From contig JADLCY010000011.1 of the NCBI GenBank assembly GCA_020846935.1, positions 496,001 through 560,000 on the forward strand: a stretch of DNA of 64,000 nt, given 5' to 3'. The first letter of the stretch is position 1. Each line of letters begins with the position of its first letter. The translations under genes were made by a program, and so were the position numbers. Of this stretch, positions 11,468 to 28,038 are shown one piece after another. The stretch is from Gemmatimonadaceae bacterium. GTDB lineage: Bacteria; Gemmatimonadota; Gemmatimonadetes; Gemmatimonadales; Gemmatimonadaceae. The notes below the pieces were generated by a model. The model searched no databases. It was not told the origin of the DNA and was given only the letters and a program-made list of their open reading frames with translations.

Positions 11468-11552
11468 AGCGCGAAATACGGCGCTTCTTCCCGGGCGACG
11501 TGTGCCGTGTCACACTCCGCCCCCCGACCCCCCCGTCGCCCGACGCGTACTG

Positions 11553-12014
11553 ATGTCCTGGTGGAGCCGCCTGATCGGCGGCAGATCCGACGACGAACTC
11601 AAGCCCCAGCGCCTCGACTACCTGTCGGAGGCGCTCGTGCTGGAGAAGCAGGGAGACTACGACGCCGCCCTCACGTCGTACCGCCTCGCGCTGCGCGACA
11701 AACCCGACGACCATCGGGTGCTCATGAACATGGCCATCGCCTACTCTCGCCTGGGTCGCCTGGGCGAAGCCGAGCGATGCTACCGGCGCGTGCTCGAGGT
11801 CAAGCCGGCGCACGCGGGCGCCCACTACGGACTCGGCTTTCTGCTCATCAAACGCGGCGAACGCGGCGGCGCGGAACAGCACCTCGAAGCGTTCCTCAAC
11901 GCGCCGGGCAAGAGCGCCATGGAAGCCAACGTGGAGCACGCGCGACAGGCGCTGGCCGACCTGCGGACGCCGCACGCCGACGCCGGCGATCCCTCGACCG
12001 AGCACGAGGGCTGA
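11553..12014 (+). CDS. TPR-repeat protein
   Basis: 153 residues starting at ATG (MSWWSRLIGG). Three tandem tetratricopeptide units are visible: ALVLEKQGDYDAALTSYRLAL, then VLMNMAIAYSRLGRLGEAER, then AHYGLGFLLIKRGERGGAEQ, followed by a helix and an acidic tail. TPRs are protein-interaction scaffolds. The ParA gene begins one base after this gene's stop, so the two are almost certainly co-expressed and may interact. No signal peptide is present, so it should be cytoplasmic. The specific partner is inference. Confidence 0.85.
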   Translation: MSWWSRLIGGRSDDELKPQRLDYLSEALVLEKQGDYDAALTSYRLALRDKPDDHRVLMNMAIAYSRLGRLGEAERCYRRVLEVKPAHAGAHYGLGFLLIKRGERGGAEQHLEAFLNAPGKSAMEANVEHARQALADLRTPHADAGDPSTEHEG

Positions 12015-12015
12015 C

Positions 12016-12783
12016 GTGGGGCGTGTCCTCGCGGTCGTCAGCCAGAAAGGAGGAGTCGGCAAGACCACCACGTCGGTGAATCTCGCGGCCGCGTTTGCCC
12101 GTCGCGGCCTCAAGACGCTGATCGTCGACATGGATCCGCAGGGCGCCGTCCGCTACGGCGTCGGGTTGCGACGTGGCCACCCGACGTACGGATTCGCCGA
12201 CTACCTCAACGGCCAGCGCTCGTTGCGCGAGATCATCCTGCCCACGGCCCTGCCCTGGCTGCGGGTGATTCTCGCGGGCTCGGTGAGCGACGCGTCGGAT
12301 CACACGTTCTACCAGCAACTCGTCGCCGAAACGAGTGTGGTGCGCGACCTCGTCGCGATCGCGCAGGAACGCTGCGACGTCGTCGTGATCGACACGCCGC
12401 CCGGGCTCGGCCCGATCGTGCATCGGGTGCTCGAGTGCAGCCAGCACGTGATCGTGCCGCTGCAGTGCGAGCCGCTGGCCCTCCAGACAACCCCGCAGAT
12501 TCTCCGGGGTATCCAGGATGTCGTTGACGCCAACAAGGACCTCACCCTGGACGGCATCCTGCTCACCATGTTCGAACCCGGCAACGCCACGTCGGAACGG
12601 GTGGCCGCTTACGTGCAGGCCCACCTGCCGCGCAACCTGATCTTCGACGTGCGCATCCCGCGCACCGACGCCGCCCTCGAGGCCTTCGCCGCCGGACAAC
12701 CCGTCGTGCTGCGCACGCCGGCTGACCCCGCTGCGCAGGCGTACGTGAATCTCGCGACCCTGCTCGCGGAGCGGCTGAAATGA
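12016..12783 (+). CDS. ParA/MinD-type ATPase, orphan (no adjacent ParB)
   Basis: 255 residues from a GTG start. It has the deviant Walker A SQKGGVGKTTTSVNLA (residues 9-24) with the signature lysine, switch I VDMDPQG, and Walker B VVIDTPPG. It resembles Soj/ParA chromosome- or cargo-positioning ATPases, which dimerise on DNA or membrane when ATP-bound. A ParB or a parS-like palindrome would be expected beside a segregation ParA, and neither is seen. The neighbours are a TPR protein (1-bp gap) and a lipoprotein (ATGA overlap). It may therefore position another cargo, or be a housekeeping Soj whose ParB lies elsewhere. Confidence 0.9.
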   Translation: MGRVLAVVSQKGGVGKTTTSVNLAAAFARRGLKTLIVDMDPQGAVRYGVGLRRGHPTYGFADYLNGQRSLREIILPTALPWLRVILAGSVSDASDHTFYQQLVAETSVVRDLVAIAQERCDVVVIDTPPGLGPIVHRVLECSQHVIVPLQCEPLALQTTPQILRGIQDVVDANKDLTLDGILLTMFEPGNATSERVAAYVQAHLPRNLIFDVRIPRTDAALEAFAAGQPVVLRTPADPAAQAYVNLATLLAERLK

Positions 12784-15452: not shown

Positions 15453-16205
15453 ATGCCCACGCCCACGCCCCCGACCGCCGTGTCCGACTTCTACGCGCCG
15501 CGTCGCACCGCCATTGCGGACATCGCGGGACTCGTGGGCATGGGACTGCTCGGGTCGGTGTCGACCATGCTCGTGTGGGACGATCTCGCGGGCGGCTTTC
15601 GCACGGGGCGCCTGGAGAAGGCGTTCCTGGTGTTCCTGCTCGTGGTGCTTGGCGCGTCGGCGCTGGGCGGAGTGCTCGGATTGCTGGCGGGTCGGGTAAT
15701 CGGCCGAGTGTGGGAGCGTCGGCATCGCGCGCGACGCGGCCCCGTACGGGGCGATCGCCCGGACGCCGACGTCTCGCCCACTGACGCCGTCCGCCCGGCG
15801 CCCTCCGAGGCGCAGGTGGCCTCGGCACCTGGGATCGAGCTGCGCTCGGTCGGCGCTGATGTCGCTGGAATCATGGCGCTGATGCAGCGAGCTGGCGACG
15901 CCGGCCCCACGCGCACCGCCGACGTCCTGCGTCGTTCGGTCGGCATTGGCGCATGGGATGGCCCGCGCCTCGTCGGCATGGCGCGCTTTGTCTCAGACGG
16001 CCGCCACGGACTCCTCAGCGATCTCGTGGTGGAGCCGGCCTATCGTCGCCGAGGCATCGGCCGCGCCCTCGTCGAGGCGGCGTGCCGCGAGGCCGGCGGC
16101 GCCCTCACCATCGAATCGGTGCCAGAGTCGGCAATCCCCTTCGTCCACGCCATCGGAGCCACGCCCGGGGGCTGGACACTCGGCGCGGCTCAGCGCGCGC
16201 CCTGA
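15453..16205 (+). CDS. Two-helix membrane domain fused to a GNAT acetyltransferase
   Basis: 250 residues. The N-terminal third has two hydrophobic segments (about residues 22-42 and 50-77) joined by a short loop, then a basic/disordered linker (WERRHRARRGPVRGDR). Residues about 130-245 form a GNAT fold with motif A LSDLVVEPAYRRRGIGRALVEA, the acetyl-CoA pyrophosphate loop (R-R-x-G-I-G-R-A). This would place an acetyltransferase on the cytoplasmic face of the inner membrane. The last 16 bp overlap tail-to-tail with the convergent kinase gene. The acceptor is unknown. The fusion of the two parts is seen directly; its purpose is not. Confidence 0.78.
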   Translation: MPTPTPPTAVSDFYAPRRTAIADIAGLVGMGLLGSVSTMLVWDDLAGGFRTGRLEKAFLVFLLVVLGASALGGVLGLLAGRVIGRVWERRHRARRGPVRGDRPDADVSPTDAVRPAPSEAQVASAPGIELRSVGADVAGIMALMQRAGDAGPTRTADVLRRSVGIGAWDGPRLVGMARFVSDGRHGLLSDLVVEPAYRRRGIGRALVEAACREAGGALTIESVPESAIPFVHAIGATPGGWTLGAAQRAP

Positions 16206-17617
16206 CGCAACGCGCTGATCGCAGCCTGCACCACCGCATCCTGGAACGAAAAGGTGCTGTCGGCATTGCCGGTGAATGTGCGCGCCCAGACCGTGGAGTC
16301 GTTGGCGATGCGGACGAGCCGAACCGTCGCTCTCAATTCCCGTCGCTGCCGCTGCACCGTGCCCTCCATGAGGTAGGCGACGCCGAGCACGCGGCCGAGC
16401 GCCGCGGGCCCGCGCACGCTGTCCGGGACGGCCAGGACGGCGGCATGCGACGCGACCCTCGCACCCGGCAGCGCGGCGGCCGCCGATGCCAGTTCGGCGC
16501 CTAACGCCGTGGCCACGCCGCGGGCCTCCGCGTCTCCACCGACCGCCTCCAGGGGCAACACGGCCAGCGAGACCGGCAGCACAGCCGCACCAGCGGTTGG
16601 CTGCGCCGCCCGCGGCGGGGACTCGGACCGCGCCACCAGGCGCGATCGCACCAGCGCACCGGCGAGCACTACGCTCCCCAGGATGCCCAGCAGTATCGCC
16701 GCGTTCCGCCACTGCATGCGCGATGACGACGGCGGGGCCGCAAACACACCGCTGATCATCTCCGGGTCCTCCAGGGCGCGCAGCAGGCCGGCCGCGGTGT
16801 CCGGGCGACGTGCCGGCTCCTTGGAGAGGCAGAGCATGATCAGGTCGGTGAGCGCCCGGGGGATGTCGTACCGCCGGGCGCTCAGGGCGGTTGGGGCCTC
16901 CGTCATCTGCGCCGCGAGCAAGGCCTGCGGCGACCTGCCGTGGAACGGCGGCGCCCCGGCGAGCATCTCGTACCCGAGGATGCCTAACGCGTAGATATCC
17001 GCCCGATGGTCCACGTTGGGATCAGCCGCGGCCTGTTCGGGTGCCATGTACGCCGGCGTGCCGAGTGACATCCCGACCCCCGTCATGCGACCGCCGGGCG
17101 CGGGATCGCCGCCGTGGCGCGACGTCATGATTGCCTTCGCCACGCCGAAGTCGGTCACCACCGCCACGCCGGCCCCGGCCGACAGGAGCACGTTATCGGG
17201 CTTGATATCCCGGTGGATCACGCCGCGGCCGTGCGCGAACGAGAGCGCTCGACACACGTCCCTGAGGATGTTCACCGTTTCGCGCACCGAGAGTGGGCCG
17301 CGACGGACACGCATACGCACCGACTCGCCGTCGATGTATGGCATCACGAAGTAGGGCAGCCCGTTCACCTTCCCCGAACTCAGGACCGGCACAATGTTCG
17401 GATGCTGCAGCGCCGCCGACATGAGGATCTCGCGCTCGAAGCGCTCCGCCGAGATCGCCTGCGTCACGCTCGCCGGCAGCAGCTTGATCACGACACGACG
17501 ATGGTGGCGCGTGTCCTGGGCAAGGAGAACCTGCGACATGCCACCACCACTGAGTTCGCGCTCGATGGTGTATTCGTCGCCGAACTGCGCCTGAAGCTGC
17601 GCCTTGAAATCTGACAC
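16190..17617 (-). CDS. Ser/Thr protein kinase (PknB-type) with transmembrane segment and extracytoplasmic FlgO/TolB-N-like domain
   Basis: 475 residues from a GTG preceded by GGAG; a TTG 33 bp upstream is the alternative. The kinase domain (about 15-275) has the Gly-rich loop ELSGGGMSQV, catalytic Lys in VVIKLLP, HRDIKPDNVLL, DFG in VTDFGVAKA, APE in GTPAYMAPEQ, and the PASTA-less bacterial layout. One transmembrane helix follows (AAILLGILGSVVLAGAL). The outside part starts SLAVLPLEAVGG... and contains GVAYLMEGTVQRQ...LRATVRLVRIANDSTVWARTF, like the FlgO/TolB-N-type domains common in Acidobacteria and Gemmatimonadota kinases. Two in-frame TTA codons sit in the octamer at 16499-16506 and 16982-16989. 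Confidence 0.9.
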   Translation of the reverse strand: MSDFKAQLQAQFGDEYTIERELSGGGMSQVLLAQDTRHHRRVVIKLLPASVTQAISAERFEREILMSAALQHPNIVPVLSSGKVNGLPYFVMPYIDGESVRMRVRRGPLSVRETVNILRDVCRALSFAHGRGVIHRDIKPDNVLLSAGAGVAVVTDFGVAKAIMTSRHGGDPAPGGRMTGVGMSLGTPAYMAPEQAAADPNVDHRADIYALGILGYEMLAGAPPFHGRSPQALLAAQMTEAPTALSARRYDIPRALTDLIMLCLSKEPARRPDTAAGLLRALEDPEMISGVFAAPPSSSRMQWRNAAILLGILGSVVLAGALVRSRLVARSESPPRAAQPTAGAAVLPVSLAVLPLEAVGGDAEARGVATALGAELASAAAALPGARVASHAAVLAVPDSVRGPAALGRVLGVAYLMEGTVQRQRRELRATVRLVRIANDSTVWARTFTGNADSTFSFQDAVVQAAISALRQGAR

Positions 17618-17677
17618 GCGACTCCGGGTGGGTGGACCGGCTTCAAGCAAACGCGAACGGCCCGCTCGGCGCCAGCC

Positions 17678-20260
17678 TCAGAACGAGAAACCCGCAGCGG
17701 CGTAGAGTCCCGTGCGTTCGCGCCCGCGCACAACGCTCAGACTCACCGTATTCGAGCGCATGAGGGGGGCGAACCAGATCCCGCCACCAACCGCCGTGTG
17801 CCAGCGGTCCGACGTCTCTCCGTCAGCGTACACACGGCCGGCATCGCCAAGCACCATGATGCCGACGTCGGCCGGCGCCACGATGCGAACCTTCGCTGCC
17901 CACGCCCGAACCTCCGCACTCCCGTACAGGGACGAGCGGCCGGCAAAGCGCTGCTGGTCCCAGCCGCGCAGCGTGCCAACGCCGCCAATCGTCGATGCCT
18001 CGTGGAACGGAAATCGGCCCCACACGTGTCGGCCACCAGCGCGCAACGCGAGGACCGGCGCGCGCGGCCCCCCGGGCGTCACGTACGTCGACACGTTCGC
18101 CGTCCCCTCGGCAAAGCTCTCGTCAACATTCCACACCGACGGATACACCGTGCCACCGAACGCGAGCCTCACGCCGCGCGTCGGCGCGACCGGTGAGTCA
18201 CGGCGGTCGATCACGAGCCCGGCTCCCGCACCGACCTGACCGTACGCGCCAGAACCATACGGCTTCGTCACGCCGATCACGGTCCGTGCGCCTTCGCGCG
18301 TCGACGTGAACTGACCCACGCCCCGGAGCTCCAGCGCCACCCCCCGCGCGACCGGGCGCATCCACGTGGGCTCGACGCGGAACAGGTTCTGGAACACCCG
18401 ATAGAATCGCGTCGCGCTGTCGGACGACGTCTCGTTGCCGAGCCCGTGAAAGCGGATCAGCTCGATCCCCGATCCGATCACGCGCAGCCCGACGACATCC
18501 TTGCTGTTCGCCCGGGGAACCGTGACATCCCACCGGACCCGCGGGCGCAGCTCCGAGAACGAGAAGTCCGCGCGCAGCACCGACCGTGAACGAAAGGGGT
18601 CGTGCCGGAACCCATAGGAGAATCGCGTGCGGGTGAGGCTGGCCACGATCCCCGTGCCCGGCGACGCGCTCAGCCCCCGCGTCGTGAAACTCCAGCTTCC
18701 CCAGTCGCGCACCTGACGCTCGGCACGATCGGTCGCGGGTGGGACGTAAGCTCGCGCATCGATGGCATGCACCGCGCCCAGCACCACGTTGCTTCCCTGG
18801 GCGTCGTACACGCTGAGTGCCGCGTCGCCGCCTGGGATACTGTCCAGCACCGCATCATCTCCCGCACCGCCAATGATGCGCAGCCTGACGCCTCGTGATC
18901 GTTCCCCGCGAATCCGCACACAATCGTTACCGCCCAGCAGGACGAGCCGTACCTCGCGCGTCTCACCGGGAAGGAACCGTCGCTCGAACCACGGCGCCGC
19001 GGCGCGTCCGGATGAATCGATCGACGCCACGGAGACGAGCATCGTCCCGCCAGGGCCGCGCACCACGTCCACAAGGTCGTCGTCGTCCGTGGCCTCGACG
19101 TTCACCTCGCGCGCCAGGATGCCATACAGCTCCCGCGCCGCCTGCGGCAACGACTCGCGTCGCTCGGCGAGCGCCTCGTACAGCCGCGTCCCGTCGATCC
19201 CGACCCAGGGCGCCGGCATCGTGGAAATCGAAGCGGTGAGCACGGAATCCGTGAGCTGGCGCTGCATCGCCAGCGCGACCGAGTCCCACACCGCACGATC
19301 CAGCGGCGGCAGCAGCCGCCGGTCGATCTCCCGTGCGTTCCAGTTGAGCCACACCATCGACGGGTACCTCGCATCGAAGGTGATCATCTGCGGCACGAAT
19401 CCGCGGATCACCCAGGGACCGAGCCCCTCGAAGCGGGCGAACGGCATGTCGCGATCCCGGGGGATGGGCTCCCACAACGCACCACGTCGCTTCGAGAATC
19501 GCCCCCAGCGCCATTGGTCGCGGTGCCGGTCCCGATCGCCGACAAGGACGTCGAAGAGCCGCGCGGAAAGATACGCGCGCGTGTCCACCTGATTGACGCT
19601 GCTGCGGCGCAACCGCTCGAACAGGCGCTCGGAGCTGATGACATCGGTCGCCCCGAGCGCCTCGGGCGTCGCGTCGAAATCGCGGGCCGGTCGCTCTTCG
19701 AACGTGCCAAGCACATTGGAGAACTCGGCGCGGAACTCTCCGAGCAGCGAATCGTCAGGCATCACCGCGAGCTGTGGACGAGGGTGCCGGATGCCCGTCG
19801 CGTCCAGGAGGCTCGCGACGATGACGGCCGCCGCCGGATGGTAGCCCGCGACCTGATCCTGGGCGATGTCCCGCACGAGCGTCTCACGCAGCTCTTCGGG
19901 AAGTCCCTTGGTGAAGTCCTTCTCCGACGGCCGAAACACGTACTCCCGCCCGTCGGCACCGTTGAACCTCAGCGAGTTGGTCTGCATGCTCCCGCCGCGC
20001 TGCGTTGGTGTAAGCCCGCCCGCGGCGCGTCGGAGATCCAGGCGCGGCACCGTGATCGGCGTGGTCCAGAGTGCACGATAGTCGTCGCCAAGGATCGCTC
20101 GATGCAGCCAGCCCGCCTCATACTTCGCCCCTGCGGTCACTCGCACGTGGCCCGCCGCGGCGGACGAATCGGACTGCGCGGGAAGCACGGTGGCGCTCAC
20201 CACGATCATGCCGATCACACCGAGCGAGCGGCCCCGCGCGCCCGATTGCCTAACGGGCAC
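17678..20260 (-). CDS. Outer-membrane BamA-like barrel fused to a periplasmic kinase-like domain
   Basis: 860 residues from a GTG. A signal peptide ends near AQS (residue 29). Residues about 95-285 hold a conserved-looking block: FNGADGREYVFR (98-109), LPEELRETLVRDIAQDQ (119-135), VGDRDRHRDQWRWG (240-253) and WEPIPRDRDM (263-272). The spacing of a basic strand, a D-R-H-x-D catalytic-loop-like motif and a later D-x-D resembles HipA/CotH/FAM20-type atypical kinases; that comparison is my inference. Residues about 545-860 form a surface-antigen beta barrel with the GTLRGWDQQRFAG motif and a terminal GFSF beta signal. The start overlaps the upstream gene's stop by 11 bp, so it ends the polyphosphate-kinase operon. 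Confidence 0.8.
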   Translation of the reverse strand: MPVRQSGARGRSLGVIGMIVVSATVLPAQSDSSAAAGHVRVTAGAKYEAGWLHRAILGDDYRALWTTPITVPRLDLRRAAGGLTPTQRGGSMQTNSLRFNGADGREYVFRPSEKDFTKGLPEELRETLVRDIAQDQVAGYHPAAAVIVASLLDATGIRHPRPQLAVMPDDSLLGEFRAEFSNVLGTFEERPARDFDATPEALGATDVISSERLFERLRRSSVNQVDTRAYLSARLFDVLVGDRDRHRDQWRWGRFSKRRGALWEPIPRDRDMPFARFEGLGPWVIRGFVPQMITFDARYPSMVWLNWNAREIDRRLLPPLDRAVWDSVALAMQRQLTDSVLTASISTMPAPWVGIDGTRLYEALAERRESLPQAARELYGILAREVNVEATDDDDLVDVVRGPGGTMLVSVASIDSSGRAAAPWFERRFLPGETREVRLVLLGGNDCVRIRGERSRGVRLRIIGGAGDDAVLDSIPGGDAALSVYDAQGSNVVLGAVHAIDARAYVPPATDRAERQVRDWGSWSFTTRGLSASPGTGIVASLTRTRFSYGFRHDPFRSRSVLRADFSFSELRPRVRWDVTVPRANSKDVVGLRVIGSGIELIRFHGLGNETSSDSATRFYRVFQNLFRVEPTWMRPVARGVALELRGVGQFTSTREGARTVIGVTKPYGSGAYGQVGAGAGLVIDRRDSPVAPTRGVRLAFGGTVYPSVWNVDESFAEGTANVSTYVTPGGPRAPVLALRAGGRHVWGRFPFHEASTIGGVGTLRGWDQQRFAGRSSLYGSAEVRAWAAKVRIVAPADVGIMVLGDAGRVYADGETSDRWHTAVGGGIWFAPLMRSNTVSLSVVRGRERTGLYAAAGFSF

Positions 20261-21146
20261 GGCGGTACGTGGTCAGCGTCGCACGACTCCCCGATCCCTC
20301 GTCGGCGATGACGAGGAGGGAGTCGCCCAGAAAGGCAATACCTTCCGGCTGCCGATGAAGCTTTCGGGAAAGCGCCACGCCACCCACCACGTCACCGCGT
20401 GGATCGATCTCGAGCAGCGCACGCTCGGGCCCCGCGACCAGGACGTAGTTCCCGGTCACCGGATCGACCTCGATGCCCGACGGGCGAAATCCTCTGGTGC
20501 CGGTACGGGCAATCGCGGCGCCGAGCGGCACGGAGATCGGAGGGCTGGCCTGCGCTGTTCGCACCAGGGGCCAGCGAAACACGGTCACGCGATCACGCCA
20601 CGCATCGACCAACGGTGTCTTGCACGGCACGAGCAGGGCCTGGGCGCGCGCGTCCCAGGCCAGGCCTTCGATTTCGCACTGGGTGCCGATGCCGGTGTCC
20701 GTGACCGACGCGGCGACCTCCGACTCGGCCGCGCCTTCACGCGCCTCGTACAGGATGCCGGTACTGGTGATGAGGAACAGGCGCGGGCCGACGAGGGCGA
20801 TGCCTTCGAGGTCGGCACGCACCGGAGGGCGCCCCAGCGAGAACCAGCGCGCGACACGTCCGGTCAGCCCATCGAGCACCGACACGATCCCGCGCTCGTC
20901 GCCATGGGCGAGCAACGAGCCGTTCGCGGTGACCGCAAGCCCGGAAACCTCGACCAGCCCCTTGGGAAGGGTGACCTGCGCCTCGGGACGACCGAAATCG
21001 ATCGATCGCAGCGCCGACGGCACACGCGTCTGCGGTGCCGTGTCGGCATCGTCGCTGGCAGACACGGCGCGCGCGCGCGACAGGACCACGACGGCCACGA
21101 CCGCCGCCAACGCGGCCAGGAGCCCGAGTGGCCGGAAACGGTTCAC
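20250..21146 (-). CDS. SdiA-regulated / phytase-like beta-propeller protein, exported or membrane-anchored
   Basis: 298 residues from a GTG that overlaps the polyphosphate kinase stop (GTGA); longer readings run into that gene. An N-terminal hydrophobic segment (PLGLLAALAAVVAVVVLS) acts as signal or anchor. The body shows propeller-type repeats: VSGLAVTANGSLLAHGDERG, DLEGIALVGPRLFLITSTG, EIEGLAWDARAQALLVPCK, RPSGIEVDPVTGNYVLVAG, QPEGIAFLGDSLLVIADEG. This pattern of SG(I/L)A, LEG and EG(I/L) blades matches the SdiA-regulated family, related to the esterase-like activity of phytase family. A phosphoester substrate would suit the polyphosphate context, but catalysis is not proven by sequence. 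Confidence 0.75.
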   Translation of the reverse strand: MNRFRPLGLLAALAAVVAVVVLSRARAVSASDDADTAPQTRVPSALRSIDFGRPEAQVTLPKGLVEVSGLAVTANGSLLAHGDERGIVSVLDGLTGRVARWFSLGRPPVRADLEGIALVGPRLFLITSTGILYEAREGAAESEVAASVTDTGIGTQCEIEGLAWDARAQALLVPCKTPLVDAWRDRVTVFRWPLVRTAQASPPISVPLGAAIARTGTRGFRPSGIEVDPVTGNYVLVAGPERALLEIDPRGDVVGGVALSRKLHRQPEGIAFLGDSLLVIADEGSGSRATLTTYRRAR

Positions 21147-24100
21147 GCGTCCCCCGGGTTGCCGACCTGGACCGCCTGCGACATGAACCGGGCTTGTGCA
21201 CTTCCGCCGTCCGTGGCCACCCGCGCCCACGTGCCGTCCGCGCCGAGCGACCATGCGGTGGAATCGGCCAGTTCCGCCGACAGAATGCCGTCGAGCCGCT
21301 CGCGATGAGTCTTCGATGCCACAGGGACCAGCACCTCCACGCGCCGTCTCAGGTTGCGAGGTCGCAGGTCAGCCGATCCGATGAAGTATTCGGCCTCCCC
21401 ACCGTTGTCGAATACATAGATACGCGCATGCTCGAGGAAGCGCCCGATGATGCTGGTGACGCGGAGGCGCTCGCCCGGTCGCAGCGTGCAGATCCCGCGC
21501 ACCACCAGATCGATCGTCACGCCGGCCGCGGCGGCGTCATACAGTGCACGGATGACCTCACGATCGGCAAGCCCGTTCAGTTTCATGCGGATACGCGCCG
21601 ACCGGCCTGCGCGGGCGTGCCCCGCCTCCCGGTGGATACGGGCGAGGAGCCCTGGCAACAGCGAGTTTGGTGCAACGAGGCAGACACGGAAACTCACGTC
21701 CGCCGGGGCAGAACTCCCGGTGAAGGTGTTGAACAGGTCGGTGAGGTCGTCGCACACATCCTCGCGTGCGGTGAGGAGGCCGAGATCGGTGTAGACGCGC
21801 GCCGTACCGGCGTTGTAATTGCCCGTGCCCACGTGCGCGTACCGGCGCGTACCGCTTCCCTCGCGCCGCACCACGAGCGCCACCTTGGAGTGGTTCTTGT
21901 ACCCCGGGAGGCCATGCACCACGTGTACGCCGGCCGCCTGCAGGCGACGCGTCCATCGCACGTTGCGCTCTTCGTCGAACCGCGCCTTGAGCTCGACGAA
22001 CACGGCGACGTCCTTCCCCGACTCCGCCGCGCGGCGCAGGGCCTCGGCGATCGGCGATCGTTCACCCGTGCGATAGAGCGCAACCTTGATCGCCATCACG
22101 TCGGGATCGTCAGCAGCTTCATCGAAGAAGCGGACCACACTGGCCGAGAAGTCATCGTACGGGTGGTGCAGCAGGATGTCGCTTTCCCGGATCGCCGCCC
22201 ACAACGACGGAGTGCCGGCGACTGGATCGCGCGCTGCAAACGGAGGAAAGCCCAGCGTGGCGATGGGCAGGTCGGTGAGCTGCCGCAGCCCGTCCAGGGC
22301 CATCAGGCCCGGGATGTCCACGAGGTCCGCCGTCCCCAGCGCGCCGGGACGCGCGCCCGGCTCGAGCGCGAGTTCGCGCAGCAGCATCTCGCGCACCGCG
22401 TAGGGCATCGCGCGTTCCACTTCCACGCGCACGATCGGTCGGTGCCGTCGCTCCCGCGCCTGCTCGTCGATGGCCTGCACCAGGTTGCCCGCACGCTGCT
22501 CGTCGAGTTCGAGGTCCGCGTATCGCGTCACGCGGAAGAGCCAGGAGTGTTCGACCCGCCGCCCGGGGTACAGGAGCGCCAGGTGACTCCGCACCACATC
22601 TTCGATCGCCACGAACCCCTCGCCGTCAGGCAGCGCGACGAAGCGCGGCAGCGACGGAGGCACGGTCAGCTCCGCCAGGTGCCGACCGTCGGTCGCGTCA
22701 CGAAGGATGACCGCAAAGCAGAGCGTGCGATCGGCGACGATGGGGAGCGAATGCCCAGGCGTCGCGGTAATCGCGCGCGGCGTGAGCAAGGGGAACACCG
22801 ACGCACGGAAGTAGCCACGCAGGTGTTCGAGCGCGCGCTCGGATACCGAGGCGACCTGCCGGATCACGACGCCGTGTGGCGCCAGGGCATCGAGCACATC
22901 TTCGGCGCACGCGTACTGCGCCTGCACGAGGCCCCGCGCGTCGCGCGCAAGGCGGGCGCGACGCGCCTCGAGTCCGGACCCGTCACTCTCGTCGCTCGCG
23001 GTGTCGCCGTCGTACTTGAGCCGGCCCGCGCGCACGGCATAGAACTCGTCGAGGTTCGACGCGACAATCGCGACATACCGCAGTCGCTCCAGGAGCGGCG
23101 TTCTCTCGTCTTGCGCGACGGCGAGGACGCGCGTGTTGAAGGCCAGCAAACTCGCGTCCCCATCGAGCAGGGCAAGGGTCTCGCGCGTGGTCGCCTCGGG
23201 GCGTCGCACCGGCGGCACGCGGGGCCCCGTGTCGGAGAGCGGCGTCGACACCAGCCGATGCAATACATCGGATCGCGCCAGCGTGGTGAGCGCCGCCAGC
23301 GTCGCGGTGTCGGCGATCTCGGGCGTGCCGATCCTCGCAAGCACTTCCTCGACCGGCAGCCAGGCGACCGACCCCGCGCCGACCGACCGCGTCGACTGGT
23401 CCACGCGTGTGCACGTCCAGATCTCGAGCGCCTTGAGCCGACCCTCACCCGTGGTGGTTGCGAGCAGATGGAGGTCGCCCACACTCGTACCGAGCGCGCG
23501 ACGCATCAGATGGCGGCAGGCGTCTTCGCCGCTCCCTTCGGTGATCGGCAGCTTCCATCCGGCACCTTCGCGAAGGACGGCGACCCGCGTGCCGTCGATC
23601 GCTACGACCGCCACCCAGCGGCCACTCCCCACGCGCCGGGCGAGTGCCTCGCTTTCGAGGGCGTCGCGGAGTTGCTCGCCACGGTGCCGCCGATCGAGCG
23701 TAAGCGACCGCAGCGCGAAGGAATCGCGGAGAGCGCTCCCGACGTCGTCGCGCGTCGGTCTCCCGGCCTTCACGACGTGGAGCGACAGTTCGTGAAAAGC
23801 GCGAGCGAGTCCCGACGCTCGCACCGTGATGGTGTCGTAGGCGAGCGCAAATCGGGCCGGGCGCCACCATCCCGCCGCGGTCGCGAGGCGCGTGAGCCGC
23901 TCCACCTCCAGTTCGAGCGTTGGCGCGAGCCACGCCGGATTCACGATCGACCGCAGGAGGCGAGCGGGTTCGCTGTCGCCGCCAATACCGGCGCGCTCGT
24001 CGCCACCCGGGAGGTCGGCCATCACGTGCCGCAGACTCGCTGCGCCATCGTGCTCGGAGACGATCGTGACCAGGAGCCGATGTCGGCCCTCGGAGTCGTG

Positions 24101-24301
24101 ACGCACGAGGCAAGAAACTCCGCGACCCTGCAGCGAACCATCGTCGCTGTCAAAATACACGTCCCGGTGGAACGCCCGGTGCGTCGCCGTGATGCGGAGG
24201 TCGAGCGGCCCCGTTGCCGTCGTCAGGCGTTTGAAGACCTCGACGCTCGGCACGTCCCAGCGGCCATCGTCCCCAACGTCCGGCAGCGGGGGCAGCGTCA
24301 T
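21143..24301 (-). CDS. ppk1: Polyphosphate kinase 1 with N-terminal CYTH and Nudix-like domains
   Basis: 1052 residues, about 360 longer than usual PPK1. Start is the ATG overlapping the DUF4956 stop (ATGA). Residues 378-1040 are PPK1: LAFNTRVLAVA, SNLDEFYAVRAGRLK, the active-site loop YKNHSK with His804 (autophosphorylated), AHVGTGNYN, and the second histidine His958 in FLEHARIYVF. Residues about 20-210 look like a CYTH/triphosphate-tunnel domain: RDVYFDSDDGSLQGRG, PTLELEVERLTRL, FALAYDTITVRA, HELSLHVVKAG; the first-strand ExExK is degenerate. Residues about 228-330 resemble a Nudix fold (VAVLREGAGWKLPITEGSGED) without the canonical Nudix box. PPK1 makes polyphosphate from ATP; the front domains may bind or trim the chain. 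Confidence 0.9.
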   Translation of the reverse strand: MTLPPLPDVGDDGRWDVPSVEVFKRLTTATGPLDLRITATHRAFHRDVYFDSDDGSLQGRGVSCLVRHDSEGRHRLLVTIVSEHDGAASLRHVMADLPGGDERAGIGGDSEPARLLRSIVNPAWLAPTLELEVERLTRLATAAGWWRPARFALAYDTITVRASGLARAFHELSLHVVKAGRPTRDDVGSALRDSFALRSLTLDRRHRGEQLRDALESEALARRVGSGRWVAVVAIDGTRVAVLREGAGWKLPITEGSGEDACRHLMRRALGTSVGDLHLLATTTGEGRLKALEIWTCTRVDQSTRSVGAGSVAWLPVEEVLARIGTPEIADTATLAALTTLARSDVLHRLVSTPLSDTGPRVPPVRRPEATTRETLALLDGDASLLAFNTRVLAVAQDERTPLLERLRYVAIVASNLDEFYAVRAGRLKYDGDTASDESDGSGLEARRARLARDARGLVQAQYACAEDVLDALAPHGVVIRQVASVSERALEHLRGYFRASVFPLLTPRAITATPGHSLPIVADRTLCFAVILRDATDGRHLAELTVPPSLPRFVALPDGEGFVAIEDVVRSHLALLYPGRRVEHSWLFRVTRYADLELDEQRAGNLVQAIDEQARERRHRPIVRVEVERAMPYAVREMLLRELALEPGARPGALGTADLVDIPGLMALDGLRQLTDLPIATLGFPPFAARDPVAGTPSLWAAIRESDILLHHPYDDFSASVVRFFDEAADDPDVMAIKVALYRTGERSPIAEALRRAAESGKDVAVFVELKARFDEERNVRWTRRLQAAGVHVVHGLPGYKNHSKVALVVRREGSGTRRYAHVGTGNYNAGTARVYTDLGLLTAREDVCDDLTDLFNTFTGSSAPADVSFRVCLVAPNSLLPGLLARIHREAGHARAGRSARIRMKLNGLADREVIRALYDAAAAGVTIDLVVRGICTLRPGERLRVTSIIGRFLEHARIYVFDNGGEAEYFIGSADLRPRNLRRRVEVLVPVASKTHRERLDGILSAELADSTAWSLGADGTWARVATDGGSAQARFMSQAVQVGNPGDA

Positions 24302-25317
24302 CGCAGTTCGACGCCGACCGTCCTCGGCACCGCCTGCAGCGCGTCCAGCAGCTCGCCGCGGCCCTCGCGACGGACGCGCACCCGGTAGGTGAGTGTGGTC
24401 GTGCCCTGCTCCGCTGGTGTGATGCCCCGAAGCTCCCAGCGACGCGTCCGCGCTTCCATCACCTCTTCCAGCGCCGATCGTGCCTCGGCGCCGTCCGTCG
24501 TGCGGATCCGGAGCGTGGCGTTGAAACGATCTTCGCCGGCCTGCACCTGCTGCTCGGCGGTGATCTGCAGCTGACGGCGCCAGGCCCGTGCCGCGGAGGC
24601 GAAGACCTCGTCGCCGGCCTCCGGCGGCACTTTGCGCTCGCGCACCGGCGCCACGCGTGGCAATCGCGCGAGCGTGCGCCATCCCCTGCGCTTGCCCTCA
24701 ACCGGGCGTCGGGCGAAGTCCAGCCACCACAGGACCGTCACGCACACCGCAAAGATCGACGAGGTGAGAATGCCGATCATCAGCGCACCGAGCGACGCCG
24801 AGATGCCGATGCTGACGGCAACAAAGATGTAGACACCGTCCTTCACGTCATCGAGGGAATTCCGGAAACGCAGCACTGCCACGATCCCGGCCAGGCTGAA
24901 CGCCAGGGCGAGGCTGTTCTGGATCAGCATGACCATGCCGGCGACCGCCACCGGCAGCAGCACGAGGATGTGCACCATCGACTGCGAGAAGCCGCGCCGC
25001 CGTCGCGTCAGCGAATACACCCACGCCAGCGGGAGGGCCGTCGCCAGGGCACCGACCAGTACCAGCAGCGTCGTGGTGACCGTATGCTGCAGCCCTCCGA
25101 ACGCGGGGCCCGCAGTGTCCGCCCGGAGCGCGGCCCCGGACGGCAACGCCGCGAGATCCTGCGGGCGGGCCCCGGCGAGCAACTCGCGCACGGCCGGGTA
25201 CTGGCGCCACGCGAGGAACCCGATGAGCGTGCCAACCGCATAATAAGCCACGATCGCCAGCAGGCGACGCGCCGCGACCGAAAGGCCTGGGGCGGTCTCG
25301 CTCTCGGCTCGACTCAT
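24298..25317 (-). CDS. DUF4956 membrane protein
   Basis: 339 residues. Start taken at an ATG with GGAG 10 bases upstream; a TTG 15 bp earlier is possible. The membrane part has an N-terminal helix, then a cluster of about four helices (LLVLVGALATALPLAWVYSL, ILVLLPVAVAGMVMLIQNSL, FVAVSIGISASLGALMIGIL, FAVCVTVLWWLDFA). Between them is the DUF4956 hallmark ALAFSLAGIVAVLRFRNSLDD. A cytoplasmic C-terminal domain of about 110 residues follows. DUF4956 genes are often found next to VTC/CYTH-type polyphosphate polymerase genes, and here the next gene is a CYTH-PPK1 fusion, so a role in polyphosphate handling at the membrane is a reasonable inference. The function is otherwise unknown. Confidence 0.85.
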   Translation of the reverse strand: MSRAESETAPGLSVAARRLLAIVAYYAVGTLIGFLAWRQYPAVRELLAGARPQDLAALPSGAALRADTAGPAFGGLQHTVTTTLLVLVGALATALPLAWVYSLTRRRRGFSQSMVHILVLLPVAVAGMVMLIQNSLALAFSLAGIVAVLRFRNSLDDVKDGVYIFVAVSIGISASLGALMIGILTSSIFAVCVTVLWWLDFARRPVEGKRRGWRTLARLPRVAPVRERKVPPEAGDEVFASAARAWRRQLQITAEQQVQAGEDRFNATLRIRTTDGAEARSALEEVMEARTRRWELRGITPAEQGTTTLTYRVRVRREGRGELLDALQAVPRTVGVELR

Positions 25318-25364
25318 GTCAGGAAACTCCAACGACCAGCAGTCGTCGGCAAGGCCCGGACGAA

Positions 25365-26000
25365 TCAGGAACGCCGGAGCGGGACAGGCGGTGAAACCCG
25401 TTCCGCGTCACGCGCGGCGACCCACTGCCGAGCATCCCGCATGAGTTCCGTGACGCCTTCGGGTACGGGCGCGGACACGGGACCCACCAGCCTCCCGCGT
25501 GGACGCAACGCCACCACAAGCGCCGACAGCATCACCGCGGTCACGCCCTCGCCAGCGATCGCGCCACGCAGGCAGTCCGGCGCTAGCGGCAACCGTTCCG
25601 TCGCATGGACGATCGAATAGCCCGGGCCCGCGGGCCCACCCACCGGGTTCACCAGCAGGAGCGAGACGCCAGCGCTGTCGTCCAGCACTGTGGCCAGCGG
25701 CGCCGCATGTCCCTCCAGGACGACCACGCCGCCTGGCTCAACCAGGTCGAGCTGTGCGCGCGCGCGCCACGACTCCGCCTCAGGCGCCTGGAGGGCCCGC
25801 GGGAGGGAGGGCATCAGCGCGCGCCCGCCTCCGGTGAAGTCCACACCGCCTTCCGCAATCAGGTACTGCGTACGACAGATCGGACAACCTAACGATCCGG
25901 CCACCACGTGGCGCCCGTGAACCTCGGTCACGGCGGCCACGAGCCACGTGGACTCGTGAGGTTCCGGGCAACGGAGAATGTCGACGAGTTCGATGTACAC
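25365..26000 (-). CDS. Trm112-type zinc-ribbon protein with degenerate methyltransferase-like domain
   Basis: 211 residues from a GTG (first residues VYIELVDILRC); longer readings add a low-complexity leader. The N-terminus holds paired metal-ligand motifs LRCPEPHESTWLV and LGCPICRTQYLI, a Trm112/YcaR-like ribbon. The remainder has Rossmann-like features (LDLVEPGGVVVLEG, LPLAPDCLRGAIAG, VALRPRGRLVGPV) that look like a worn methyltransferase. It is the first gene of the minus-strand operon leading through DUF4956 to ppk1, 47 bp before the next start. One TTA codon sits in CGTTAGGT (25887-25894). The function is not known. Confidence 0.65.
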   Translation of the reverse strand: MYIELVDILRCPEPHESTWLVAAVTEVHGRHVVAGSLGCPICRTQYLIAEGGVDFTGGGRALMPSLPRALQAPEAESWRARAQLDLVEPGGVVVLEGHAAPLATVLDDSAGVSLLLVNPVGGPAGPGYSIVHATERLPLAPDCLRGAIAGEGVTAVMLSALVVALRPRGRLVGPVSAPVPEGVTELMRDARQWVAARDAERVSPPVPLRRS

Positions 26001-26981: not shown

Positions 26982-27608
26982 TTATCGGTCGTTGGATCCG
27001 GCGTGGGCGAGCCGGAGGAACTCGTCGCGCGTCTTGGCGTCGTCGCGGAACGCGCCGAGGAGTGCGGAGGTGATCGTCTTGGAGTTCTGCTTCTCCACCC
27101 CGCGCATCATCATGCAGAGGTGGTACGCCTCGATCACCACGCCCACGCCGATCGGCCCGAGGATCGCCTGGATCGCGCTCGCGATTTCGCCCGTGAGGCG
27201 CTCCTGCACCTGGAACCGCCGCGCAAACATGTCGACGATGCGCGGCAGCTTGGACAGGCCGACGATGCGACCGTTCGGAATATAGGCGATGTGCGCCTTG
27301 CCAAAGAACGGCAGCAGGTGATGCTCGCACATCGAATACAGCTCGATGTCGCGCACCATCACCATGTTCTGGTGGTCCTCGGCAAAGATCCCCTCCCCGA
27401 CGACGTCTTCGACCCTCATGTGGTAGCCCTGCGTCAGGAACCGCATGGACTCCACCACACGATGCGGCGTGCGCTGCAGGCCCTCGCGTTGCGGCTGCTC
27501 ACCGAGCAGTTCGAGCTGCCGGCGGACCAGATTCTCGAACTCCAGGCAGGCCGCGCCGGCAAAGGCGCCGGGCTCGTCGTCGGCAGGTGGCTTGATGTGC
27601 CAGGGCAT
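26982..27608 (-). CDS. folE: GTP cyclohydrolase I
   Basis: 208 residues from MPWHIKPP; an ATG 39 bp upstream, overlapping the PTPS gene, is the alternative start. It converts GTP to 7,8-dihydroneopterin triphosphate, the first step of folate and biopterin synthesis. Family motifs are [13 protein letters not shown], the zinc/catalytic [49 protein letters not shown] and [16 protein letters not shown] (third zinc ligand Cys and substrate Gln/Arg-Gly). Zinc ligands Cys-His...Cys are intact, so it is the type I zinc enzyme. It is flanked by PTPS (7-bp gap) and the SDR (1-bp gap), pointing to biopterin rather than folate alone. Confidence 0.96.
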
Positions 27609-27615
27609 GGAAGGC

Positions 27616-28038
27616 TCAGGTGTCGTCGCGCCCATCATAGTCGACATAGTTGTGTTCCGTCTCCCACAGGCGCAGCCGCGTCAGCCGCGCCGGTCGCACG
27701 TGGGGCTCGATCGCCCGCCAGCAGGCGACGACCAGGTTCTCGGACGTGGGGTTGATGCCCCGCAGGAACGGCACGTCCAGGTTGAGGTTCCGGTGGTCGA
27801 GCTGGTCGATCACCTCGCGCGACACGACGTCACGCAGCACGCCGAGGTCCATCACGTAGCCGGTCCGGGCGTCGATCGGACCCGTCACCGACACGTCGAG
27901 GGTGTAGTTGTGCCCGTGCCAGTTGGGGTTGTTGCATTTTCCGTAGATCCGCGCATTCTCCTCGTCGCTCATCGCGGCACTGTGAATGCGATGGGCAGCG
28001 TTGAAGCGCAGGCGACGCGTGATGGTGACGATCGGCAC
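27616..28038 (-). CDS. 6-pyruvoyl-tetrahydropterin synthase family protein (PTPS/QueD)
   Basis: 140 residues from a GTG. Zinc histidines are seen in FNAAHRIHS and NWHGHNY. The catalytic cysteine lies in the [13 protein letters not shown] block, where C is separated from HGH by five residues as in animal-type PTPS; the QueD type has three. Further motifs are [15 protein letters not shown] and the pterin-anchoring Glu in [10 protein letters not shown]. It converts dihydroneopterin triphosphate to 6-pyruvoyl-tetrahydropterin, or, in QueD enzymes, to carboxytetrahydropterin. The Cys spacing and the adjoining folE and SDR genes favour the biopterin role over queuosine. First gene of this three-gene operon. 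Confidence 0.9.

Follow-up and report, generated by a model that had tools for sequence, protein, structure and literature searches.

A conserved Gemmatimonadota gene cluster linking a CYTH-Nudix-PPK1 fusion to DUF4956 and a kinase-fold outer-membrane protein

The window, a 64,000-nucleotide stretch of a contig from a soil-type Gemmatimonadaceae bacterium, carries a minus-strand cluster in which a polyphosphate kinase (PPK1) with a CYTH-Nudix N-terminal half is encoded beside a DUF4956 membrane protein, a beta-propeller and an outer-membrane protein with a kinase fold. With moderate confidence, we interpret this locus as the Gemmatimonadota form of a polyphosphate polymerase/DUF4956/CotH-kinase cluster, in which a PPK1 paralog replaces the VTC polymerase and in which synthase, sensor and envelope kinase would act along the lines proposed below. 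Because VTC genes adjoin DUF4956 within the phylum, and VTC, DUF4956 and CotH genes occur together on plasmids of other phyla, the fused PPK1 appears to fill the VTC slot.

Organization and conservation of the cluster

Genes and domains of the locus are listed here by their coordinates in the window.

25365..25999, minus strand: Trm112-like zinc-ribbon gene (NF038101, 1.2e-4, far under its cut-off)
25317-24298, minus strand: DUF4956 membrane protein gene, 339 aa, read from sequence
24301-21143, minus strand: CYTH-Nudix-PPK1 fusion gene, 1052 aa, read from sequence
23702..24268, minus strand: CYTH (triphosphate-tunnel) domain spanning residues about 12-200, without the acidic patch for hydrolysis
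23267..23629, minus strand: Nudix-fold domain spanning residues about 225-345, without the glutamates of the Nudix box
21182..23164, minus strand: PPK1 core spanning residues about 380-1040, with its catalytic residues conserved
21146-20250, minus strand: beta-propeller gene, 298 aa, read from sequence
20260-17678, minus strand: gene for an outer-membrane protein with a HipA/CotH/PI4K-like kinase domain followed by an Omp85 barrel, 860 aa, read from sequence (PF01103, 3.1e-10; NF047779, 8e-21)
19106..20158, minus strand: kinase-like domain, residues about 35-385, with invariant K114, D242, D244, D269 and D271
about 17620-16190, minus strand: Ser/Thr protein kinase gene (PF00069, 5.5e-44), possible operon member

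A sequence-only reading of this DNA had placed five genes nose to tail. The last four do overlap, by 4 bases (ATGA) between DUF4956 and PPK1, 4 bases (GTGA) between PPK1 and propeller, and 11 bases between propeller and barrel. The zinc-ribbon open reading frame (ORF), by contrast, stops at 25365, 47 bases upstream of DUF4956 and without overlap. It was dropped as an operon member because it is not kept adjoining DUF4956 in the close relative L072, where a kinase-type ORF lies between the two, and it is probably an upstream neighbor outside the conserved unit. At the other end, the Ser/Thr kinase gene starts ~60 bases past the barrel gene, and the two may be cotranscribed. Such kinase genes recur (window 16190-17620 and L041:6076-8535), in one case separating DUF4956 from the PPK1 fusion; since Ser/Thr kinases are common in the phylum, their tie to the clusters is uncertain. 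Two adjoining genes at 26982-28038 of the window look, by eye, like GTP cyclohydrolase I and a 6-pyruvoyl-tetrahydropterin synthase/QueD-type protein. In comparison with a related metagenome-assembled genome (MAG), dN/dS was 0.12 to 0.25 in all five segments tested (0.18 for the CYTH part), a signature of purifying selection that argues that the window genes are real.

To determine how widely the arrangement is conserved, we surveyed 34 fusion loci: 31 search loci from other genomes, the window, the KW1 MAG (L070) and the ES-bin-29 MAG (L069 and L072); L071 repeats L044. DUF4956 was present in 22 of the 34, and about six of the 12 loci without it nearby are cut by contig ends. A kinase-fold envelope gene, either a homolog of the kinase-Omp85 gene or one for a secreted CotH-like protein, was found in 30, and a propeller gene in nine; only L042 and L055 have neither DUF4956 nor a kinase-fold gene. 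All three components (DUF4956, polyphosphate synthase and kinase-fold protein) occur together in the window and, for example, in L036, L044, L046, L050, L053 and L063. The chance expectation for a DUF4956 gene within 8 kb is about 0.5% of loci, which puts the probability of 22 or more among 33 loci at about 1e-42; DUF4956 was also enriched at the genome level (28/31 fusion genomes versus 72/169 others; P = 4e-7). The association of DUF4956 and envelope genes with the long PPK1 expected from the sequence-only reading thus extends to most relatives. A gene for a calcineurin-like metallophosphatase was observed between kinase-Omp85 and DUF4956 in two loci (L060:12259-13767; L036, about 11495-12600).

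The CYTH-Nudix-PPK1 fusion

The PPK1 half is intact, as the sequence-only reading had proposed from His804 and His958. It matches TIGR03705 at 664 bits against an equivalog cut-off of 466, all four PPK1 domains exceed their curated cut-offs, and the core, with its catalytic His pair, aligns over its full length with solved enzymes (E. coli Ppk, 1xdo; P. gingivalis, 2o8r). Within the fusion group, R744, H958, R960, D978 and R980 show no variation across the 30 complete rows; the same is true of H804 and K806 across the 29 rows that have a residue at these positions. The protein differs from these enzymes in its N-terminal extension and in its phylogenetic position: the same genome encodes a second, ordinary PPK1 (L067) outside the fusion clade. 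When 53 PPK1 cores were placed in a maximum-likelihood tree, all 30 fused proteins fell into one clade (support 99/97); its sole unfused member (L189) is truncated by the end of its contig at the expected position of the N terminus. The simplest reading would be one ancient fusion, conserved since.

By single-sequence search, residues 1-371 had relatives in 31 of the 200 genomes sampled from the phylum; a profile search extended this mostly by proteins of other kinds with a weak CYTH match. A scan of a genome collection with the full protein returned four loci, all from Gemmatimonadota by organism name, and the N-terminal half had zero matches in the plasmid records searched. PPK1 as such matched somewhere in all 36 genomes tested.

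The extension, earlier put at about 360 residues, is present and measures about 375, the Pfam and NCBIfam matches to the PPK1 core beginning at residue about 380. Residues 1-375 of the window protein itself had zero Pfam or NCBIfam matches. Their proposed division into a CYTH and a Nudix-like domain was nevertheless borne out by family-level and structural evidence. PF01928 (CYTH) matched 30 of 33 relatives scanned singly (best E value, 3.7e-9), and a profile of the N-terminal family matched the E. coli inorganic triphosphatase YgiF (2.4e-7). An AlphaFold2 model of residues 1-375 had a mean pLDDT of 89.7; Foldseek searches with its first part recovered YgiF (3.4e-9), other tunnel enzymes and the yeast VTC complex (2.2e-6), and those with its second part recovered Nudix proteins, the best being NUDT4A (TM score 0.73 by target; rmsd 2.6). 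The Pfam Nudix profile had zero matches among 33 members of the fusion family.

The tunnel domain is a CYTH domain proper, closest to the YgiF/inorganic triphosphatase type. Membership in the VTC family was rejected: the VTC profile PF09359 had zero matches among the 33 family members, and hhalign of the N-terminal family against three VTC proteins, a thin set, likewise gave none. The suggestion that bacterial and VTC-like polymerase modules are joined in one chain therefore does not hold, the CYTH domain being YgiF-type, without a PF09359 match and apparently without catalytic residues. With YgiF-type enzymes (5a60) the domain shares the tunnel fold and, in most relatives, a YFDT...RxR region; it differs in having neither the acidic metal-2 patch nor a CHAD domain, and the window protein also lacks the first Arg of RxR.

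Tunnel triphosphatases bind two metals through glutamates of the ExExK motif and the last strand; YgiF is impaired in catalysis by mutation of Glu-6, Glu-160 or Arg-56, and the positions of four glutamates in the plant enzyme AtTTM3 are occupied by four basic residues in Vtc4p (PMC4641920, PMC8233210). In our residue table of 33 fusion-family members, the hydrolytic acidic metal sites (ExExK/ExE) were not found. The Lys of ExExK is kept as Arg14, the first Glu (Glu-4 equivalent) is gone, 10 of 33 members have the second, and the Lys-69 equivalent is lost. The last strand has the pattern E-x-[K/T/S/E]-x-[R/H], in a register that is uncertain, including as to the fate of the metal-1 glutamate. 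At the catalytic Arg-56 position the window has Leu65, with Arg in 25 of 34 relatives. The Nudix box (Gx5Ex7REUxEExGU) was likewise absent from the table; R263 and G271 are kept, and the glutamate pairs are replaced by R267 and variable residues. Conservation of R46, D51, R135 (33/34) and R138 in the CYTH domain makes anion binding plausible.

These residues bear on the alternative that CYTH and Nudix are active hydrolases of polyphosphate, triphosphate or nucleotides, which would make the fusion a synthesis-and-breakdown enzyme. Its nearest solved relatives are indeed a triphosphatase (YgiF) and a Nudix hydrolase (NUDT4A), and many relatives retain both arginines of RxR. However, the loss of the Glu-4 and Lys-69 equivalents, the Leu65 substitution at Arg-56 (PMC4641920) and the replacement of the Nudix EE pair by Arg and variable residues make this highly improbable, and we set active enzymes aside, the catalytic positions being missing. 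Both domains appear to lack the residues for phosphate cutting; a role in binding rather than cutting is likely, and the CYTH domain is probably a sensor.

Variants of the fusion were also seen. L063:6600-9356 and L065:6713-9418 encode CYTH-PPK1 fusions without the Nudix part. L059:7118-9136 (genome G196) encodes a 673-aa CYTH-Nudix protein whose PPK1 part ends after the noncatalytic N and middle domains; it sits in a DUF4956-propeller cluster, with the PPK1 C-terminal half absent downstream, and seems to have retained the N-terminal half without the catalytic domains.

Envelope partners and the parallel with VTC clusters

The DUF4956 assignment was confirmed by a PF16316 match (43.3 bits; cut-off, 30.6), and the hydropathy profile indicates about four hydrophobic segments followed at the C terminus by a soluble domain. 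A different partner, a caspase-domain (Peptidase_C14) gene, directly precedes the DUF4956-like gene of L206:1787-4163 (Sinorhizobium meliloti psymA). The propeller, previously called phytase-like, has an N-terminal hydrophobic segment and acidic and His residues that are invariant in the alignment; as to family, it gave a weak match to PF06977 (SdiA-regulated; 1e-5) and no more, so that a secreted, SdiA-regulated/phytase-like protein is the putative assignment.

The first half of the barrel protein had zero Pfam or NCBIfam matches. An AlphaFold2 model of its N-terminal domain (pTM, 0.81) retrieved CtkA, HipA, CotH, PI4KII and Fam20C in Foldseek, and K114, D242, D244, D269 and D271 are invariant across 14 relatives, the pattern expected of an active kinase fold. 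Together with the PF01103 match, these data uphold the earlier description of a kinase-like outer-membrane protein, with the kinase fold ahead of an Omp85 barrel. Given an N-terminal hydrophobic segment and the barrel behind it, Omp85 topology suggests that the kinase domain should be periplasmic. It shares with CotH, HipA and Fam20C-like kinases the fold and the Lys/Asp positions of the active site, but it is the N-terminal part of an Omp85 protein and is too distant for PF08757 (CotH), which had zero matches in it. The stand-alone secreted CotH-like family of other loci keeps K121, N222, D224, D249 and D251, and PF08757 matched 3 of its 14 members. Sequence kinship between this family and the window domain was rejected, as the catalytic-loop region alone aligns (E value, 0.077).

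To place the cluster beyond the fusion loci, we examined the neighborhoods of VTC polymerase genes. Three of the phylum's 200 sampled genomes had such a gene, directly adjoined by DUF4956 in all three; no VTC gene was found in the window's own genome. Among 14 control genomes, VTC and DUF4956 both occurred in the same three. We also opened eight plasmid or chromid records with DUF4956, in six of which VTC adjoins it (Nonomuraea, Paenibacillus, Acetoanaerobium, Enterococcus, Planococcus and Pseudobutyrivibrio); CotH lies near the pair in four of the six (Planococcus, Pseudobutyrivibrio, Enterococcus and Nonomuraea, the VTC and CotH calls in Nonomuraea being made by ORF reading without a profile scan). 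The sequence-only reading had named DUF4956 as a VTC neighbor, and at the level of the neighborhood its intuition of a VTC connection stood; at the level of the domain it did not, the CYTH being YgiF-like instead of VTC.

In streptococci, clostridia and bifidobacteria, cotH, polyphosphate polymerase and DUF4956 genes adjoin pel genes (PMC7112168); we noticed none of the latter near the window cluster. In Streptococcus intermedius, deletion of the CotH gene or of the four-transmembrane gene next to it changed the amount of Pel or reduced aggregation, and no aggregation phenotype was reported for deletion of the polymerase gene (PMC12345266). From its position and topology, we infer that the four-transmembrane gene is DUF4956. 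The window cluster resembles these in bringing together DUF4956, a secreted or envelope kinase-fold protein and a polyphosphate-synthesizing protein. It differs in that its synthase is PPK1, of unrelated fold and with a CYTH-Nudix N terminus, its kinase domain shares a polypeptide with an Omp85 barrel, and a propeller is added.

Most Gemmatimonadaceae looked at carry DUF4956 and a CotH-like gene without a linked polymerase, so the core pair needs none at its locus. In the window's own genome, a second DUF4956 gene is directly followed by one for a secreted CotH-like protein (L066:8267-10467, contig C2), with no polyphosphate synthase nearby. Such pairs may speak against a tight polymerase link, as may, by analogy, the S. 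intermedius polymerase deletion without a reported aggregation phenotype (PMC12345266). On these grounds, DUF4956 and the kinase-like protein could form an envelope-modification pair with which the PPK1 fusion, as a stress or energy enzyme, is merely coregulated. We consider this rather unlikely, since DUF4956 has been paired independently with two unrelated polyphosphate synthases, VTC and PPK1.

Alternatively, the PPK1 could feed polyphosphate through DUF4956 to the envelope for export or surface display, with barrel and propeller handling it outside. The cluster does hold inner-membrane, periplasmic and outer-membrane parts, and DUF4956 adjoins every VTC gene in the phylum sample. We nonetheless regard export as unlikely: conduction by DUF4956 lacks support, the polymerase-free pairs weigh against it, and Omp85 proteins usually insert or translocate proteins rather than polyphosphate.

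Proposed mechanism and significance

Under the favored interpretation, a PPK1-containing version of the polymerase/DUF4956/CotH-kinase cluster, we propose that (i) the PPK1 half would make polyphosphate from ATP in the cytoplasm; (ii) the CYTH tunnel and Nudix fold would bind polyphosphate, tri- or pyrophosphate or nucleotides without cutting them, and could thereby gate or position the synthase; (iii) DUF4956 would be the inner-membrane partner of the fusion; and (iv) the periplasmic kinase-fold domain, anchored by Omp85 here and secreted as a CotH-like protein elsewhere, would act on the envelope in response to the level or supply of polyphosphate. Polyphosphate may be linked to the kinase through regulation, or it may serve as phosphoryl donor where ATP is absent. 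In the boldest version, polyphosphate made by the PPK1 fusion or VTC crosses the inner membrane via DUF4956 and donates phosphoryl groups to the periplasmic kinase-fold protein. This we hold to be very doubtful; if true, it would mean ATP-free envelope phosphorylation common to two unrelated polyphosphate synthases.

The individual families and the VTC form of the cluster are already known. A search of the open-access literature returned no description of a CYTH-Nudix-PPK1 protein or of PPK1 in a VTC/DUF4956/CotH cluster; two papers mentioning PPK1, CYTH and fusion appear to concern other subjects. In an envelope system that is still poorly understood, and whose DUF4956 component has no known function, a single slot seems to be taken by either of two unrelated enzymes, and because a different polyphosphate synthase has independently come to occupy it, polyphosphate itself, not the VTC protein, is the likely common factor. 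This suggests that an envelope kinase system tied to polyphosphate exists across phyla, and the present PPK1, with its internal CYTH and Nudix domains that appear to be noncatalytic, would offer a direct handle on the sensing of polyphosphate synthesis.
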